A stretch of 64,000 nt of DNA, taken from positions 2,912,501-2,976,500 of the forward strand of contig NZ_CP087952.1 in assembly GCF_028752835.1 (NCBI RefSeq). Reading direction: 5' to 3'. Position 1 is the first letter of the stretch. The number at the start of each line of letters is the position of its first letter. Positions 1,664 through 61,768 of the stretch are shown piece after piece. Below the pieces are notes generated by a model, which saw nothing but the letters and a program-made list of their open reading frames with translations, had not been told where the DNA came from and did no database searches. Position numbers and translations under genes: made by a program. The stretch comes from Desulfosarcina sp. BuS5. Lineage in GTDB: Bacteria; Desulfobacterota; Desulfobacteria; Desulfobacterales; BuS5.

Positions 1664-1678
1664 AGTTTTCAAAGATCA
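1664..1678 (-). promoter_or_regulatory. Probable boxA antitermination element in rrn leader
   Basis: In the minus-strand leader, between the promoters and 16S, the sequence GATCTTTGAAAAC resembles the rRNA boxA (TGCTCTTTAACA type) bound by NusB and S10. It lies about 75 bases downstream of the promoter-proximal -10 element and about 75 bases before 16S, a typical position. The match is partial, so this is a motif-based inference. Confidence 0.45.
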
Positions 1679-1750
1679 AATATTCTTAAAAATAAAATTC
1701 TTTTTAGTTACAACATTACTCACAATATTATAACAATTTATTTTTAGAAT

Positions 1751-2010
1751 AGTTTATATTTTTTTGCTTTGCCCGTCAAGTATTTTTTAAAAGAATTTAA
1801 TTTTTTATAAAATTACTCGGCGATCAAAAAAAAATAAATATATATTTTTTTGCTTTGCCCGTCAAGTATTTTTTAAAAGAATTTAATTTTTTATAAAATT
1901 ACTCGGCGATCAAAAAAAAATAAATATATATTTTTTTGCTTTGCCCGTCAAGTATTTTTTAAAAGAATTTAATTTTTTATAAAATTACTCGGCGATCAAA
2001 AAAAAATTTT
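1751..2010 (-). promoter_or_regulatory. Three tandem rRNA promoters in 86-bp repeats
   Basis: An 86-bp unit is repeated three times head to tail (starting points near 1766, 1852 and 1938). Each carries a minus-strand promoter with -35 TTGACG and a 17-base spacer. The -35 boxes lie at 1774-1779, 1860-1865 and 1946-1951. The -10 boxes are TAAACT at 1751-1756, TATATT at 1837-1842 and TATATT at 1923-1928. AT-rich tracts upstream of each -35 could act as UP elements. All three point into the 16S gene, so they are best read as stacked rrn promoters. Confidence 0.8.
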
Positions 2011-2039: not shown

Positions 2040-3335
2040 CTATTTTACAGGTTTTATTTTTAATATATGAAACCGTTTCTTCCCTGCTCTTAATAATATT
2101 TCCATCTCCTTAATATCATGATAAGATATTAAGTAATCAAAGCTGGTTATGCGTTGTCCATTAATATAAGCGCCACCCTGTTTTATAAGCCTGCGAGATG
2201 CACTCTTGGTGTCTGCCAAGCCCACGTCATGTATTATTTTAAATGCGGGAATGCCATTTTTTATTTGCTCCAGGTCGATAAAAGAATAAGGTACAGAAGT
2301 ATCATCCTCAGCCTCAGTTTGACGTGGTATAGTGCTGCTTCGTAAAATATTTTCCGAAAGAGCTCTGGAGCCGAACATACTTGCCGATGCATTATATGCT
2401 TTAACGGCCTCTTCTCTGCCATGAGCAAGCAAGGTAGCTTCAAATGCAAGCACTGACTTTGAGCTATTCAAATCCGCGCCTTCTAATTTTTCAATTGCTT
2501 TGATTTCATTCATGGGAAGAAAAGTAAACAGGGCAAGAAATCTCGCAACATCTCTATCATCGGTGTTTATCCAATACTGATAATAGTCATAAGGAGTAGT
2601 TTTTGAAGGATTAAGCCATATCGCTCCTTTAACTGTTTTGCCCATTTTAACGCCGCTGCTGGTTGTTATAAGGGGAAAAGTCAACCCGAATACAGTCTCC
2701 TTGCGGATTTTTCGTACCAGCTCAATACCCGCAATTACATTACCCCATTGATCACTGCCGCCCATCTGGAGCTTACAGCCAAATCGTTCATATAACATCA
2801 AAAAATCATATGCTTGTAACAACATATAGTTAAATTCAATAAAATTTAATCCTTCCTCAGATTCCAGGCGCATCCTGTAGCTTTCGGCCTTTAGCATACG
2901 ATTTACTGAGAAATGCAGGCCAATATCTCTTAAAAATGGTATATATTCCAGGCTATTCAACCATTCAGCATTATTTAATAATAAAGCCTTTCCTTCATTA
3001 AAATCTATAAACTTTGATAGTTGTTCTTTTATTTTAACAATATTATCATTTATTTTATCAGGGATAAGTAACTTTCTTGTTTCAGTCTTTCCGCTTGGAT
3101 CGCCCACAAGACCGGTTCCGCCTCCAACAAGCGCTATTGGCCGGCAGCCGTTTCTCTGCATATGCGCCAGCGCCATTATGGGAATAAGACTCCCAACATG
3201 CAGACTGGCTGCAGTGGGATCAAAACCTATGTAGCACGTTACCTCTTTCTGATTGAGGTACTCATCCAGCTCCCCCTCGTGGGTAGTCTGCTCTATAAAT
3301 CCTCTTTCGGAAAGTATTTCTTTAATATTAACCAT
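2040..3335 (-). CDS. tyrS: Tyrosyl-tRNA synthetase
   Basis: Class Ic aminoacyl-tRNA synthetase that charges tRNA-Tyr in the cytoplasm. The HIGH-type motif appears as HVGS near residue 46-49, the KMSKS loop as KMGKT near residue 240, and a C-terminal S4-type RNA-binding domain occupies the last 70 or so residues. Length (431 residues from this ATG) fits the family. A TTG start eight codons upstream (3359) is also open; the ATG was chosen, though its Shine-Dalgarno (AAAGG) is distant, so the start is uncertain. It lies 23 bases downstream of rny on the same strand and could be cotranscribed with it. Confidence 0.95.
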   Translation of the reverse strand: MVNIKEILSERGFIEQTTHEGELDEYLNQKEVTCYIGFDPTAASLHVGSLIPIMALAHMQRNGCRPIALVGGGTGLVGDPSGKTETRKLLIPDKINDNIVKIKEQLSKFIDFNEGKALLLNNAEWLNSLEYIPFLRDIGLHFSVNRMLKAESYRMRLESEEGLNFIEFNYMLLQAYDFLMLYERFGCKLQMGGSDQWGNVIAGIELVRKIRKETVFGLTFPLITTSSGVKMGKTVKGAIWLNPSKTTPYDYYQYWINTDDRDVARFLALFTFLPMNEIKAIEKLEGADLNSSKSVLAFEATLLAHGREEAVKAYNASASMFGSRALSENILRSSTIPRQTEAEDDTSVPYSFIDLEQIKNGIPAFKIIHDVGLADTKSASRRLIKQGGAYINGQRITSFDYLISYHDIKEMEILLRAGKKRFHILKIKPVK

Positions 3336-3382
3336 GTTATATTGTAAAACCTTTGACAAATAGTTATTTAATATTTTTAGCG

Positions 3383-4945: not shown

Positions 4946-5167
4946 TAATGTTCTCCCCGATACGCTGTAAATCAAGTTCACTCTAAGTTCAACAAATCGT
5001 CATAGACTATTGCAATAGAGAGGAGTAATAACTACTCGGCAGTAGATGGGACTTTCACGTCATCATCAAGACTGAAAAATTATTTATTTCAATGTTCCTA
5101 ATTTTGTATATAAGGTGTTTTGTTGGAATAGCGGCAAGGAAGAGAAAAAATTGAGGAATAATTAGTA

Positions 5168-5350
5168 AACCCCCGCCATATGCCGTGTTGACCATTCTTT
5201 GAACCGAAACACAAAAAAGTGGGCGCCTTGTAGTCTCTTTAGGCTTTTCTGTACAAGCAGAACATGCTCACCAAAACCAGTGACGGCTCCCTTATGAAAA
5301 GTATTGGATCAAAGCACATCATACAATCACGTACACTGCAGGGGCTAATC
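5168..5350 (-). ncRNA. ssrS: 6S RNA
   Basis: On the minus strand between zapA and rny, a segment of about 180 nt carries hallmarks of 6S RNA, the regulator that mimics an open promoter and sequesters sigma-70 RNA polymerase. The block GGTGAGCATG followed by a short hairpin and AGAAAAGCCT matches the conserved central region of the enterobacterial RNA. The downstream GGTTCAA is also conserved. The 5' GCCCC and 3' GGGGG ends can close a long stem. The position next to zapA matches the usual ssrS neighbourhood. Ends are estimated. Confidence 0.85.
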
Positions 5351-51437: not shown

Positions 51438-51508
51438 CGTACGCATCACCAGCGGCCCACCCAAACTTGCCGCTTCAGCGCCGCTGCGCTTTTTGCGTCG
51501 GCTTCCAG

Positions 51509-53771
51509 GTAGGAGCATCGGTTACCCGACGCCCCCCCTACAGATCCGTACGTGAAGATTTCCCTCATACGGTTCCTCGGTTCAAATCCTTTTTACCGGA
51601 TTATCAACCAAACAGGAGACACCCCGTTTGGCGTATAACTTTGCAGCCCTTACGGCATCAAATATTATGGACTATTCTGGGTAATGGCAGTGGGTATGTT
51701 GTGCGCAAGTCCTCGAACATTACTTCGCCCTTGTGACTTCTTCGGCTTAACCATCGACGCCATGCTTTCTCAGTATATTCAAACACAACTTCCAGCGCTT
51801 TGTAGTTACTTATTACACCAAAGTACTGGTAAAAACCTCGCAGTTTACTGCAAAGAATCTCATACTGCTCGACCATTGGCTTATGACGGTTATCCTTGCA
51901 CCATATCCATATTCTCTTCATAAAACGGCTTGAACGCTTTCTTGCCGTCTTTTTCTTTATTACCATGTACCCTTTTAATGATTTTGACCAGTAAAATGTA
52001 AACCCTAAAAAATCAAACGTCCCGTTTCCCTTTCCGCTAATGCGTTTGGAAAATCGAATCAGTTTTGTCTTTTCCGGGTGAAGTGACAGCTCGAACTGTT
52101 CGAACCGCCTGGGTAATACATCCATGACACGCAATGCGTCTTTTTCATACTCGAACCCGAGGATGAAATCATCCGCCCAGCGTATGATGGAGCATCTCCC
52201 TTTCATCCGGGGGATCACTTCTTTCACGTACCAGTCATCTAAAACATAATGAAGAAAGATATTACTGAGCACAGGGGAAATTACTCCTCCCTGTGGAGTG
52301 CCCGTTTCAGAGTACGTCAGGTTGCCTTCCTCCATTACGCCTGCATTCAACCACTTCCCTATCAGGCGAATCATTCCGCCGTCACTTACTCTCCGACGTA
52401 TCATGTCTTTAAGTAACTCGTGATTAATATTGTCAAATAGTCCTGTAATATCTGCGCTTACTATCCAGCTGATATTCTGCTTCAAGCATTGCTCACGTAA
52501 ATCTTTGATTGCCATGTGTTGGCTCCGACCTTTTCTGAATGCATGGGAAAAATTGTAAAAATTCCTGTCAAATATGACATTCAATATGGCTGCTGCTGCT
52601 TTCTGGACAATTTTATCCTCAAGTACAGGTATGCCAATTGGACGCTTTTTCCCTCCTTCCTTGTCTATCCAGATACGCTTTACAGGAGACGCAACGTACT
52701 GTCCTCTCCGCAGTCGTTCATACAGATTATAGAGGTTTTGATCAAGATTTTCGGCATACTCCTTTGCCGTAACCTTGTCCACTCCTGCAGATTCGCTTTT
52801 CCGAATTTTACGAAAGGATTGTTTCAGTAAATCAAAGTCTATCCGATGGACTACTGATGTAAATACCAGTTCATGATTATTTTGAGCAAGCAGCTCGATT
52901 TTGATAAGGGATGACCCACCTGTTAACACCGGTGGTTGTCCCCATTCTATCGGTCTGGAATTGCAAGCGACCGTTCTTGCAATTTCTCGGCTTTTTGTTG
53001 ATATGGTTTGTGACCTCTGTGTATCTCCCATAATTCCTGCCAAAAAAAACGTTATACCCTGCTTCACCTTCCCTGCAGTGGGTCGCTTGGGCATCACTTC
53101 CCCACCTTTCCGATCAAGATAGTTCAATTCTTAATCATCGGTACTATGATCTGCTAAGACTTCCGAATGTTTATCTCAGGTTCGTTCGCTCTTCGCTATC
53201 CTCCCCTGATACCTTGTATCGCCCATCTTTTAATGTTTGTGTTTCTGCCAATGGCAGACTCGTTGCAAGGCGGGACATTCCTATGCAACGCCGGGATTTC
53301 GCTTGCGCTGGATTTCCTGTTACCGTTCTTTTTACCCAAGGAAACATCCGGGTCTCCCAAGTTCCCGAGCTACCCCTTTGAGTACATGCCCTGGTCTAAG
53401 ACCCCGGTGGTGTCCTGAATACTTGCCTTAGCATATTCAGGACTGCTGCCTTCCGCTGTCTCCAAAGCGTCGGCTTTTTCCTGCAAGCAGGATTATCACA
53501 ATGACCACAACCATACATTTTTCGGGGCTCAATACAGAGCCTGCAATCTTGCTCCGTCCAGCTCCAGACTCCCGTTACCGGGTTTACCTGTGGACTTCGC
53601 TACTGACCTGCTGGTTAGTCTTTAGTCAGGTGGGACTATCTTAACATCAATGCCAAAGCAAGCCCTGCAGAGATGAAGGAAACAATTTGTTTCCCGAGCA
53701 CCCACTTGGTAACAATATCGAGTTTTAAAGACCTTGTGTCTTATCCCAACGATTCGGATTTATCTTGGCAC
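51509..53771 (-). mobile_element. Group IIC intron, copy 1
   Basis: Self-splicing retroelement of about 2,263 bases on the minus strand, from GTGCCAAG (5' end near 53771) to CTAC (3' end near 51509). Near the 3' end, at about 51541-51577, lies a domain V-like hairpin with the GGAACCGTATGAGG stem and a GAAA loop, then a domain VI-like stem with a C-rich run. It carries one reverse transcriptase gene without an endonuclease domain. Class C is assigned on the short domain V, lack of endonuclease and attC location. The exact 3' border is uncertain by about 6 bases because CTGGAA also follows all three copies. Confidence 0.88.
51658..53094 (-). CDS. ltrA: Group II intron reverse transcriptase/maturase, copy 1
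   Basis: Intron-encoded protein of 478 residues. Reverse transcriptase motifs include RPIGIPVLEDKIVQ, SADITGLFDNINHELL, TPQGGVISPVLSNIFLHYVLD and the catalytic centre as WADD in IIRWADDFILGF (near residue 306). The C-terminal maturase domain X holds RGFYQYFGVISNY. No HNH endonuclease follows, as usual in class C. The protein helps splicing and copies the intron into new sites. The ATG at 53094 follows a GGTGGGGAAG stretch and is preferred to the TTG at 53127. Confidence 0.94.
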   Translation of the reverse strand: MPKRPTAGKVKQGITFFLAGIMGDTQRSQTISTKSREIARTVACNSRPIEWGQPPVLTGGSSLIKIELLAQNNHELVFTSVVHRIDFDLLKQSFRKIRKSESAGVDKVTAKEYAENLDQNLYNLYERLRRGQYVASPVKRIWIDKEGGKKRPIGIPVLEDKIVQKAAAAILNVIFDRNFYNFSHAFRKGRSQHMAIKDLREQCLKQNISWIVSADITGLFDNINHELLKDMIRRRVSDGGMIRLIGKWLNAGVMEEGNLTYSETGTPQGGVISPVLSNIFLHYVLDDWYVKEVIPRMKGRCSIIRWADDFILGFEYEKDALRVMDVLPRRFEQFELSLHPEKTKLIRFSKRISGKGNGTFDFLGFTFYWSKSLKGYMVIKKKTARKRSSRFMKRIWIWCKDNRHKPMVEQYEILCSKLRGFYQYFGVISNYKALEVVFEYTEKAWRRWLSRRSHKGEVMFEDLRTTYPLPLPRIVHNI

Positions 53772-54886: not shown

Positions 54887-55037
54887 AAGCTCTCCTTCGT
54901 CAATCATTATAGTTTAGCGGCCAGAACGATGAACTCACCGGCCGCCAACATGCGGGGCAAGACCTTCCGCAAACGACAACATTTATGCGGAAGAGAGCGT
55001 TTAAAAAAAAACACCGCTGTTGGCGGTCGGGTTCCAG

Positions 55038-57301
55038 GTAGGAGCATCGGTTACCCGACGCCCCCCCCTACAGACCCGTACGTGAAGATTTCCCTCATAC
55101 GGTTCCTCGGTTCAAATCCTTTTTACCGGATTATCAACCAAACAGGCGACACCCCGTTTGGCGTATAACTTTGCAGCCCTTACGGCATCAAATATTATGG
55201 ACTATTCTGGGTAATGGCAGTGGGTATGTTGTGCGCAAGTCCTCGAACATTACTTCGCCCTTGTGACTTCTTCGGCTTAACCATCGACGCCATGCTTTCT
55301 CAGTATATTCAAACACAACTTCCAGCACTTTGTAGTTACTTATTACTCCAAAGTACTGGTAAAAACCTCGCAGTTTACTGCAAAGAATCTCATACTGCTC
55401 GGCCATTGGCTTATGACGGTTATCCTTGCACCATATCCATATTCTCTTCATAAAACGGCTTGAACGCTTTCTTGCCGTCTTTTTCTTTATTACCATGTAC
55501 CCTTTTAATGATTTTGACCAGTAAAATGTAAACCCTAAAAAATCAAACGTCCCGTTTCCCTTTCCGCTAATGCGTTTGGAAAATCGAATCAGTTTTGTCT
55601 TTTCCGGGTGAAGTGACAGCTCGAACTGTTCGAACCGCCTGGGTAATACATCCATGACACGCAATGCGTCTTTTTCATACTCGAACCCGAGGATGAAATC
55701 ATCCGCCCAGCGTATGATGGAGCATCTCCCTTTCATCCGGGGGATCACTTCTTTCACGTACCAGTCATCTAAAACATAATGAAGAAAGATATTACTGAGC
55801 ACAGGGGAAATTACTCCTCCCTGTGGAGTGCCCGTTTCAGAGTACGTCAGGTTGCCTTCCTCCATTACGCCTGCATTCAACCACTTCCCTATCAGGCGAA
55901 TCATTCCGCCGTCACTTACTCTCCGACGTATCATGTCTTTAAGTAACTCGTGATTAATATTGTCAAATAGTCCTGTAATATCTGCGCTTACTATCCAGCT
56001 GATATTCTGCTTCAAGCATTGCTCACGTAAATCTTTGATTGCCATGTGTTGGCTCCGACCTTTTCTGAATGCATGGGAAAAATTGTAAAAATTCCTGTCA
56101 AATATGACATTCAATATGGCTGCTGCTGCTTTCTGGACAATTTTATCCTCAAGTACAGGTATGCCAATTGGACGCTTTTCCCCTCCTTCCTTGTCTATCC
56201 AGATACGCTTTACAGGAGACGCAACGTACTGTCCTCTCCGCAGTCGTTCATACAGATTATAGAGGTTTTGATCAAGATTTTCGGCATACTCCTTTGCCGT
56301 AACCTTGTCCACTCCTGCAGATTCGCTTTTCCGAATTTTACGAAAGGATTGTTTCAGTAAATCAAAGTCTATCCGATGGACTACTGATGTAAATACCAGT
56401 TCATGATTATTTTGAGCAAGCAGCTCGATTTTGATAAGGGATGACCCACCTGTTAATACCGGTGGTTGTCCCCATTCTATCGGTCTGGAATTGCAAGCGA
56501 CCGTTCTTGCAATTTCTCGGCTTTTTGTTGATATGGTTTGTGACCTCTGTGTATCTCCCATAATTCCTGCCAAAAAAAACGTTATACCCTGCTTCACCTT
56601 CCCTGCAGTGGGTCGCTTGGGCATCACTTCCCCACCTTTCCGATCAAGATAGTTCAATTCTTAATCATCGGTACTATGATCTGCTAAGACTTCCGAATGT
56701 TTATCTCAGGTTCGTTCGCTCTTCGCTATCCTCCCCTGATACCTTGTATCGCCCGTCTTTTAATGTTTGTGTTTCTGCCAATGGCAGACTCGTTGCAAGG
56801 CGGGACATTCCTATGCAACGCCGGGATTTCGCTTGCGCTGGATTTCCTGTTACCGTTCTTTTTACCCAAGGAAACATCCGGGTCTCCCAAGTTCCCGAGC
56901 TACCCCTTTGAGTACATGCCCTGGTCTAAGACCCCGGTGGTGTCCTGAATACTTGCCTTAGCATATTCAGGACTGCTGCCTTCCGCTGTCTCCAAAGCGT
57001 CGGCTTTTTCCTGCAAGCAGGATTATCACAATGACCACAACCATACATTTTTCGGGGCTCAATACAGAGCCTGCAATCTTGCTCCGTCCAGCTCCAGACT
57101 CCCGTTACCGGGTTTACCTGTGGACTTCGCTACTGACCTGCTGGTTAGTCTTTAGTCAGGTGGGACTATCTTAACATCAATGCCAGAGCAAGCCCTGCAG
57201 AGATGAAGGAAACAAACCGTTTCCCGAGCACCCACTTGGTAACAATATCGAGTTTCAAAGACCTTGTGTCTTATCCCAACGATTCGGATTTATCTTGGCA
57301 C
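55038..57301 (-). mobile_element. Group IIC intron, copy 2
   Basis: Same element as copy 1, about 2,264 bases, with a few dozen substitutions or fewer along its length and one extra C in the domain VI run. Ends are GTGCCAAG near 57301 and CTAC near 55038. It is closer to copy 3 than to copy 1 in the differences noticed (for example ACTCCA versus ACACCA and GCCAGAGC versus GCCAAAGC). The 5' flank is again the repeated cassette; the 3' flank is an attC half shared with copy 3. Confidence 0.88.
55188..56624 (-). CDS. ltrA: Group II intron reverse transcriptase/maturase, copy 2
   Basis: Full-length 478-residue protein, same domains as copy 1: reverse transcriptase motifs with WADD at the active site, maturase domain X, no endonuclease. 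It differs from copy 1 by a handful of residues (for example GGEKRP for GGKKRP, HKPMAEQ for HKPMVEQ, NYKVLE for NYKALE). Intact, so it could supply protein in trans to copy 3. Confidence 0.94.
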   Translation of the reverse strand: MPKRPTAGKVKQGITFFLAGIMGDTQRSQTISTKSREIARTVACNSRPIEWGQPPVLTGGSSLIKIELLAQNNHELVFTSVVHRIDFDLLKQSFRKIRKSESAGVDKVTAKEYAENLDQNLYNLYERLRRGQYVASPVKRIWIDKEGGEKRPIGIPVLEDKIVQKAAAAILNVIFDRNFYNFSHAFRKGRSQHMAIKDLREQCLKQNISWIVSADITGLFDNINHELLKDMIRRRVSDGGMIRLIGKWLNAGVMEEGNLTYSETGTPQGGVISPVLSNIFLHYVLDDWYVKEVIPRMKGRCSIIRWADDFILGFEYEKDALRVMDVLPRRFEQFELSLHPEKTKLIRFSKRISGKGNGTFDFLGFTFYWSKSLKGYMVIKKKTARKRSSRFMKRIWIWCKDNRHKPMAEQYEILCSKLRGFYQYFGVISNYKVLEVVFEYTEKAWRRWLSRRSHKGEVMFEDLRTTYPLPLPRIVHNI

Positions 57302-59360: not shown

Positions 59361-59508
59361 TTTTACTCCAATTTTAATAAACAATCACGATTGTATAACG
59401 ATGAACTCACCGGCCGCCAACATGCGGGGCAAGACCTTACGCAAACGACAACATTTATGCGGAAGAGAGCGTTTAAAAAAAGCGCCGCGGTTGGCGGTCG
59501 GGTTCCAG

Positions 59509-61768
59509 GTAGGAGCATCGGTTACCCGACGCCCCCCCTACAGACCCGTACGTGAAGATTTCCCTCATACGGTTCCTCGGTTCAAATCCTTTTTACCGGA
59601 TTATCAACCAAACAGGCGACACCCCGTTTGGCGTATAACTTTGCAGCCCTTACGGCATCAAATATTATGGACTATTCTGGGTAATGGCAGTGGGTATGTT
59701 GTGCGCAAGTCCTCGAACATTACTTCGCCCTTGTGACTTCTTCGGCTTAACCATCGACGCCATGCTTTCTCAGTATATTCAAACACAACTTCCAGCACTT
59801 TGTAGTTACTTATTACTCCAAAGTACTGGTAAAAACCTCGCAGTTTACTGCAAAGAATCTCATACTGCTCGGCCATTGGCTTATGACGGTTATCCTTGCA
59901 CCATATCCATATTCTCTTCATAAAACGGCTTGAACGCTTTCTTGCCGTCTTTTTCTTTATTACCATGTACCCTTTTAATGATTTTGACCGGTAAAATGTA
60001 AACCCTAAAAATCAAACGTCCCGTTTCCCTTTCCGCTAATGCGTTTGGAAAATCGAATCAGTTTTGTCTTTTCCGGGTGAAGTGACAGCTCGAACTGTTC
60101 GAACCGCCTGGGTAATACATCCATGACACGCAATGCGTCTTTTCATACTCGAACCCGAGGATGAAATCATCCGCCCAGCGTATGATGGAGCATCTCCCTT
60201 TCATCCGGGGGATCACTTCTTTCACGTACCAGTCATCTAAAACATAATGAAGAAAGATATTACTGAGCACAGGGGAAATTACTCCTCCCTGTGGAGTGCC
60301 CGTTTCAGAGTACGTCAGGTTGCCTTCCTCCATTACGCCTGCATTCAACCACTTCCCTATCAGGCGAATCATTCCGCCGTCACTTACTCTCCGACGTATC
60401 ATGTCTTTAAGTAACTCGTGATTAATATTGTCAAATAGTCCTGTAATATCTGCGCTTACTATCCAGCTGATATTCTGCTTCAAGCATTGCTCACGTAAAT
60501 CTTTGATTGCCATGTGTTGGCTCCGACCTTTTCTGAATGCATGGGAAAAATTGTAAAAATTCCTGTCAAATATGACATTCAATATGGCTGCTGCTGCTTT
60601 CTGGACAATTTTATCCTCAAGTACAGGTATGCCAATTGGACGCTTTTCCCCTCCTTCCTTGTCTATCCAGATACGCTTTACAGGAGACGCAACGTACTGT
60701 CCTCTCCGCAGTCGTTCATACAGATTATAGAGGTTTTGATCAAGATTTTCGGCATACTCCTTTGCCGTAACCTTGTCCACTCCTGCAGATTCGCTTTTCC
60801 GAATTTTACGAAAGGATTGTTTCAGTAAATCAAAGTCTATCCGATGGACTACTGATGTAAATACCAGTTCATGATTATTTTGAGCAAGCAGCTCGATTTT
60901 GATAAGGGATGACCCACCTGTTAACACCGGTGGTTGTCCCCATTCTATCGGTCTGGAATTGCAAGCGACCGTTCTTGCAATTTCTCGGCTTTTTGTTGAT
61001 ATGGTTTGTGACCTCTGTGTATCTCCCATAATTCCTGCCAAAAAAACGTTATACCCTGCTTCACCTTCCCTGCAGTGGGTCGCTTGGGCATCACTTCCCC
61101 ACCTTTCCGATCAAGATAGTTCAATTCTTAATCATCGGTACTATGATCTGCTAAGACTTCCGAATGTTTATCTCAGGTTCGTTCGCTCTTCGCTATCCTC
61201 CCCTGATACCTTGTATCGCCCGTCTTTTAATGTTTGTGTTTCTGCCAATGGCAGACTCGTTGCAAGGCGGGACATTCCTATGCAACGCCGGGATTTCGCT
61301 TGCGCTGGATTTCCTGTTACCGTTCTTTTTACCCAAGGAAACATCCGGGTCTCCCAAGTTCCCGAGCTACCCCTTTGAGTACATGCCCTGGTCTAAGACC
61401 CCGGTGGTGTCCTGAATACTTGCCTTAGCATATTCAGGACTGCTGCCTTCCGCTGTCTCCAAAGCGTCGGCTTTTTCCTGCAAGCAGGATTATCACAATG
61501 ACCACAACCATACATTTTTCGGGGCTCAATACAGAGCCTGCAATCTTGCTCCGTCCAGCTCCAGACTCCCGTTACCGGGTTTACCTGTGGACTTCGCTAC
61601 TGACCTGCTGGTTAGTCTTTAGTCAGGTGGGACTATCTTAACATCAATGCCAGAGCAAGCCCTGCAGAGATGAAGGAAACAAACCGTTTCCCGAGCACCC
61701 ACTTGGTAACAATATCGAGTTTCAAAGACCTTGTGTCTTATCCCAACGATTCGGATTTATCTTGGCAC
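59509..61768 (-). mobile_element. Group IIC intron, copy 3
   Basis: About 2,260 bases, the same element as copies 1 and 2 with three single-base losses in homopolymers: an A run near 60007, a T run near 60143 and an A run near 61043. RNA parts outside the gene look intact, including the domain V-like hairpin near 59541-59577. It could still splice if helped by protein from another copy. Confidence 0.88.
59658..61091 (-). pseudogene. ltrA: Group II intron reverse transcriptase/maturase, copy 3, frameshifted
   Basis: The same gene as in copies 1 and 2, broken by three one-base deletions in homopolymers. They shift the frame after the first dozen or so codons, after WADDFILGFEYEK (ending the 60058-61041 frame) and again before the domain X part, which remains as 59658-59966. 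If the deletions are genuine it is inactive; if they are base-calling errors it is a third intact copy. Confidence 0.85.

Follow-up and report, generated by a model that had tools for sequence, protein, structure and literature searches.

A tandem array of predicted promoters upstream of the rRNA operon in Desulfosarcina sp. BuS5

In Desulfosarcina sp. BuS5, the sequence between tyrS and the 16S rRNA gene contains an 86-bp tandem repeat in which each unit carries a predicted promoter pointing toward 16S. The best explanation, which we consider highly probable, is a promoter array that was formed by duplication and whose sites read into the rrn operon. The array was located at 1755–2007 of the window (the whole 64-kb stretch of DNA that was analysed), where Tandem Repeats Finder reported a period of 86 bp, 2.9 copies (2.94 exact copies), 100% matches and 0 indels. 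The only other tandem repeat that the program found in the window was a 15-bp repeat, and the array was present once in the 4.18-Mb, 2-contig genome. The initial annotation had described a repeat before 16S that was exact over most of its length; the repeat was confirmed as a single array, and its exactness extends over the whole length.

The 16S rRNA gene lies at 32–1592 on the minus strand (Rfam RF00177, 1605.6 bits), and searches with a 1650-base query, a 400-base query and RF00177 all agreed on a single detected 16S in this genome. The rRNA leader contains the string TGATCTTTGAAAA at 1666–1678 (minus strand, read directly from the sequence), which we take to be a boxA-like antitermination element; the same string was found upstream of 16S in relatives, and it served as a landmark in linking regions to the operon. 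Three predicted promoters belong to the array, all on the minus strand: P1 (TTGACG-17-TAAACT, 1751–1779, 9/12 match), P2 (TTGACG-17-TATATT, 1837–1865, 10/12 match) and P3 (TTGACG-17-TATATT, 1923–1951, 10/12 match). The -10 of P1 differs because it straddles the edge of the repeat. A fourth minus-strand site, P4 (TTGACA-17-TATAAA, 2009–2037), lies outside the repeat but keeps the same 86-bp register from P3, and its -35 begins 2 bp past the stop codon of the gene directly upstream. This gene, an ORF at 2040–3335 on the minus strand, is presumably tyrS (tyrosyl-tRNA synthetase), judging from its protein sequence; the start at 3335 was our choice, and in the ORF list the frame opens with a TTG at 3359.

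Of the four sites, P4 comes nearest to the consensus, with a better match than P1–P3; it was missed by the first promoter scan because its -10 ends in A. That scan bore out the claim that every unit places a TTGACG box 17 bases from a TA-rich -10 pointing to 16S. The count of three stacked promoters held for the array itself but overlooked P4: if tandem rrn promoters are taken to mean at least two sigma70-type promoters directed into 16S, the locus has four by sequence. A possible extra start, an extended -10 without a -35 (TGTTATAAT, 1727–1735, minus strand), is a weak candidate from sequence reading. Downstream of the -10, in the start region, P2 and P3 both have a run of nine T, on which initiating RNA polymerase could slip; P1, at the array edge, lacks this run. 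A scan of 1500–2200 found one terminator-like site, at 1600–1618 on the plus strand, and none inside the array. The array also matched itself on the minus strand at 73% identity, which we put down to A+T-rich near-palindromy.

Two further features of the window were recorded. Near the rrn operon lies a 6S RNA (5166–5347, minus strand; RF00013, 110.6 bits), flanked by what we take to be an rny-like gene on one side and a glmU-like gene with the ATP synthase cluster on the other. Three group II introns on the minus strand (approximately 51487–53700, 54925–57230 and 59397–61700) fall within ~10 kb and are ~99% identical to one another over ~2.2 kb; two have a 489-aa reverse transcriptase-like frame, and the frame listed for the third is 327 aa.

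The promoter matches were compared with chance expectation. When the unit was dinucleotide-shuffled 20000 times, TTGAC together with a -10 (≥5/6) at 17-base spacing occurred in 12 of the shuffled sequences. Over the whole region, the promoter scan returned 8 sites with both strands counted, where shuffled sequences gave 4.1 ± 2.2; besides P1–P3, one of these read toward 16S and four read the opposite way. Because the region is very A+T-rich and single promoter-like matches are cheap, the whole-region scan alone is weak evidence, and the case for real promoters is made by the comparative data rather than by the scan of the window.

We compared the units with those of the closest relatives. The organism’s own family comprised four genomes, its own included, and tyrS was found in three of them. 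The two relatives with tyrS, G002 and G001, are metagenome-assembled genomes (MAGs) of the same genus, and both had the same layout with units of their own: 83 bp in G002 (L016) and 93 bp in G001 (L017). Their contigs end inside the arrays, each with at least two units. These units agreed with the earlier proposal that the promoters became stacked by duplication of one unit. Measured from -10 to -10, the first two units of BuS5 have the same sequence, from which the third departs at its edge alone (96.5–100%), and the two units of G002 and the two of G001 are 97.2% and 98.8% identical, respectively. Between genomes, identity fell to 84.7–89.0% for BuS5 versus G002 and to 61.9–64.7% for either of these versus G001. 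Over 75 columns, the BuS5 and G002 units had 11 fixed differences, with 0 variable columns within BuS5 and 3 within G002; the tyrS DNA of the same pair was 94.5% identical. A search of genome_contigs for the exact unit stretch returned no matches, and it brought up no second strain of the species.

Units were thus more alike within a genome than between species in all three genomes, two of which have truncated arrays, and this pattern points to concerted evolution, which may proceed through continuing exchange or through recurrent re-duplication. The units of all three species retained the -35 and, where uncut, a TA-rich -10 at 17 bases. P4, which is TTGACA-17-TATATT in G002, held its own sequence in both BuS5 and G002; it appears to have been kept apart from the units, as an array edge would be.

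We then considered the order as a whole. Relatives of the BuS5 tyrS were mostly from MAGs titled Desulfobacterales, Desulfobacteraceae or Deltaproteobacteria. An order-wide search gave at least 150 tyrS places. We fetched the sequence downstream of tyrS at 140 places, which with the window made 141 regions; places in G285, G208, G335, G020, G309, G342, G068 and G016 were left unfetched, three genomes (G040, G064, G249) gave two places each, and for BuS5 and G002 the tyrS-rrn region was taken from other loci. Of these regions, 88 reached 16S (BuS5 included), 20 reached boxA, 21 ran to a contig end and 12 were unlinked. The 12 unlinked regions, which had no 16S, boxA or contig end nearby, were put aside; 5 of them were mostly N, and one, the HSG2 array L109, was later included in the self-similarity test. 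The TTGAC counts also omit the 21 regions that ran to a contig end.

The remaining 108 tyrS-rrn regions (BuS5 and 107 fetched) contained 281 TTGAC boxes toward 16S, whereas 50 shuffles gave 50.5 (sd 7.1) and the other strand had 47. Each region includes up to 60 bases of tyrS, in which 3 boxes fall, and the regions are related, so that the counts are not independent. Two boxes were found in 47 regions, three in 37, four in 12, one in 8 and five in 4. Successive boxes were spaced 70–110 bp apart in 91 of 173 cases. Stacked boxes some 70–110 bp apart are therefore the usual layout, of which the 86 bp in the window is typical. The strand bias and the spacing argue for real promoters and indicate that stacked rrn promoters are normal here. 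The expectation that tandem rRNA promoters would be common was accordingly upheld, with stacking ordinary in both the order and the phylum.

The 107 fetched regions contained 277 boxes, and the 206 with a -10 that passed the filter were aligned at that element; conservation of the -35 and -10 in this alignment is partly by construction. Features outside the box selection were also seen. A-rich tracts lay at about -43 to -38 and -33 to -28 from the first -10 base, with A reaching 0.62 and 0.75 against a background of 0.34, and a T-rich stretch followed at +11 to +15 (T 0.49–0.57 versus 0.30). Both A-rich tracts precede the -35, ~10 bp from each other, as we would expect of UP elements. A T-rich start region after the -10 was common to the rrn promoters of the order, with C at 0.15–0.23 and T at ~0.57 over +12 to +14.

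Near-identical units were rarer than stacked promoters. For a self-similarity test we gathered 191 regions (BuS5, the linked and fetched regions, HSG2, L016 and 60 regions of a wider survey of order and phylum, at least 2 of which, from G133 and G063, repeat places already included), and 185 were tested after 6 under 120 bases were dropped. Scores of at least 22 were obtained in 11 of the 185 regions, from 10 genomes and with periods of 83–265 bp, whereas the ceiling in 555 shuffles was 15.5; four further regions scored 16–22. The genomes with arrays were BuS5, G001, G002, G144 (HSG2), G140, G473, G047, G622, G735 (both operons) and G491, in seven families (f1, f7, f67, f117, f45, f103 and f104). 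The L091 array was counted once, having the same 154-bp period and boxes as that of G140 (L349). A further 53 16S-upstream regions, used in the within-order rrn comparison and lying outside the 185, scored at most 23.0, at a period of 351. The most extreme case was Desulfobacterales bacterium HSG2 (L031), where less than 2 kb of sequence behind tyrS contains 15 TTGAC boxes, in two tandem repeat families with units of 264 bp in 4.6 copies and 128 bp in 2.3 copies; its contig has an internal N run and ends in the array, which is known from the tyrS side alone. Stacking is thus ordinary in this group, and uniform units that differ between species are less so.

Taken together, these data suggest how a promoter array formed by duplication might work. 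P4, just behind tyrS, would form the upstream edge, followed by the 86-bp direct repeats; in each unit, a -35 and a -10 recognised by the primary sigma factor would be preceded by an A-rich tract. Four sites at 86-bp intervals would be open to RNA polymerase, and because no terminator-like site was found in the array, transcripts begun at the upper ones would read across the lower promoters and on into the leader, with its boxA, and 16S. The benefit, if all four sites fire, would be a higher or steadier rate of initiation on one rrn operon. Direct repeats of such size can recombine and are prone to unequal exchange. Slippage or unequal recombination between direct repeats, or else a new round of duplication in each lineage, would make the units and keep them alike, so that they would evolve in concert; recombination would account for their uniformity and also for any change in their number.

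A first alternative, which is possible but which we doubt, is that only one or two sites fire and that the repeats form a neutral minisatellite in which a promoter lies by chance and which changes size without effect. That P4 is the closest to consensus fits this idea, as does the absence of near-identical units from 174 of 185 regions, which would make arrays dispensable. However, the diverged stacked boxes of the 108 regions, with their preferred spacing and strong strand bias, suggest selection for several promoters, and the units of three species have kept their -35 and, where uncut, the TA-rich -10 at 17 bases.

A second alternative adds to the duplicated array the idea that unit number is a heritable dial, with strains gaining or losing units and so shifting rRNA output; we consider this somewhat unlikely. 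It would draw on the tendency of such direct repeats to unequal exchange, on the likeness of units within genomes and on G450, whose three rrn operons (L301, L315, L324) have 4, 4 and 2 TTGAC boxes in diverged units, or 3, 3 and 1 without the boxA-type motif nearest 16S in each. Against it, both operons of G735 have an equal number of boxes (6), and in G002 and G001 the copy number is cut off by contig ends. The initial annotation had proposed such variation in unit number and likened the locus to a contingency locus. We concluded that the observation of a duplicated promoter array is real and that the label is too strong, since the term implies frequent switching. A broader form of the idea is that rrn promoters in Desulfobacterota repeatedly become minisatellites, with unit number as a fast-evolving heritable setting of rRNA transcription, which would make them the bacterial equivalent of the repeated promoters in eukaryotic rDNA spacers; we think this somewhat unlikely. 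The arrays in 10 genomes and seven families, with HSG2, would then perhaps be instances of it, several of them independent.

It is improbable that stacked promoters compensate for few rrn operons. Within the order, the contrast looked favorable to this explanation: multi-rrn genomes of family f36 had one box per operon, whereas BuS5 and four other genomes with a single detected 16S had 3–4. The f36 set comprised 13 genomes with 2–6 16S matches each, and one box at -132 to -209 was present in 49 of 49 matches (L239–L287), with 11 scattered extra boxes in total; this family manages without promoter stacking. Its one-box layout at a narrow distance was unlike that of most relatives surveyed. Compensation as a general rule nevertheless failed outside f36, where genomes with at least two 16S averaged 2.73 boxes (30 regions, 14 genomes) and 30 single-16S genomes averaged 2.2. 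Without boxA-type motifs, which contain TTGAC and were counted in 8 of 60 survey regions (G450, G735, G693, G589), the values were 2.5 for multiple and 2.17 for a single detected 16S, which did not bring the relation back. Moreover, f36 is one family, and the within-order contrast may reflect a single event.

The 16S counts are themselves unsafe. No 16S match was found in 11 of 29 few-contig genomes, and of five inspected, four (G056, G151, G167, G327) had N runs beginning at or near 16S and one (G273) had a contig end there. That is, because N runs and contig ends hide 16S in some genomes, ‘single 16S’ here means one detected. An RF00177 search of 58 genomes found only 8 16S and missed at least that of the single-contig G013, and was not used for copy numbers; the fourth 16S match of G023 had no stretch in the box survey.

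The reading of the repeats as sites for a regulator or a replication initiator (iterons), very improbable in our view, was dropped: the word GATYGCCRAGTAA is common to the BuS5 and G002 units, but the G001 units lack it while having the -35, the TA-rich -10 and the T-tract, and position and spacing fit rrn promoters. Repeats can be inflated by assembly, but an artefact with one unit at the true locus is scarcely credible, as the BuS5 assembly consists of 2 contigs, and two or more units with a sequence of their own are present in G002 and in G001, on contigs that end in the array.

We return to the reading of a promoter array formed by duplication. The supply of rRNA in a cell with one rrn operon is a basic question of growth rate, and if the array grows and shrinks by recombination it would provide a quick genetic handle on that supply. 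The contigs of both close relatives end inside the array, so MAGs may under-report such arrays together with the 16S genes that follow them. In the open-licence papers searched (titles and the starts of abstracts, with few subscription journals), we found nothing on near-identical tandem rrn promoter units in Desulfobacterota.

Stacked rrn promoters as such are textbook knowledge. The P1 and P2 promoters of Escherichia coli rrn operons have A-rich upstream elements and differ from each other in sequence, and thus are not copies of a repeat. What they share with the array is the stacking of promoters before 16S, as described in PMC5179076. Mycobacteria provide a second comparison: passages of PMC10218544 describe the hypervariable multiple promoter region (HMPR) upstream of rrnA and rrnB, with starts P1 and PCL1 at rrnA, and place rrnB downstream of tyrS with a single promoter in the species described; the authors speak of promoter duplication. 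According to those passages, the HMPR resembles the array in that multiple starts precede an rrn operon of low copy number, and in that one operon lies behind tyrS. It belongs to a different phylum and its tyrS-linked rrnB has a single promoter, and near-identical tandem units are not described in the same passages (PMC10218544). The BuS5 locus shares the tyrS context, but the phylum differs and so we did not assign it to the HMPR.

Eukaryotic rDNA is served by another polymerase. The rDNA spacer of Drosophila is a eukaryotic case, unlike the array and without homology to it, and any likeness would be convergence. As reported in PMC1215480, this spacer carries duplicated core promoters in subrepeats before the rRNA genes, promoter activity follows subrepeat number, and spacer length goes with growth. 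On that account, the two systems have in common promoter copies within repeats, concerted evolution and a structure that is kept while its sequence changes. By analogy, the Drosophila rDNA spacer would be the nearest parallel to the promoter copies borne on repeats in BuS5.
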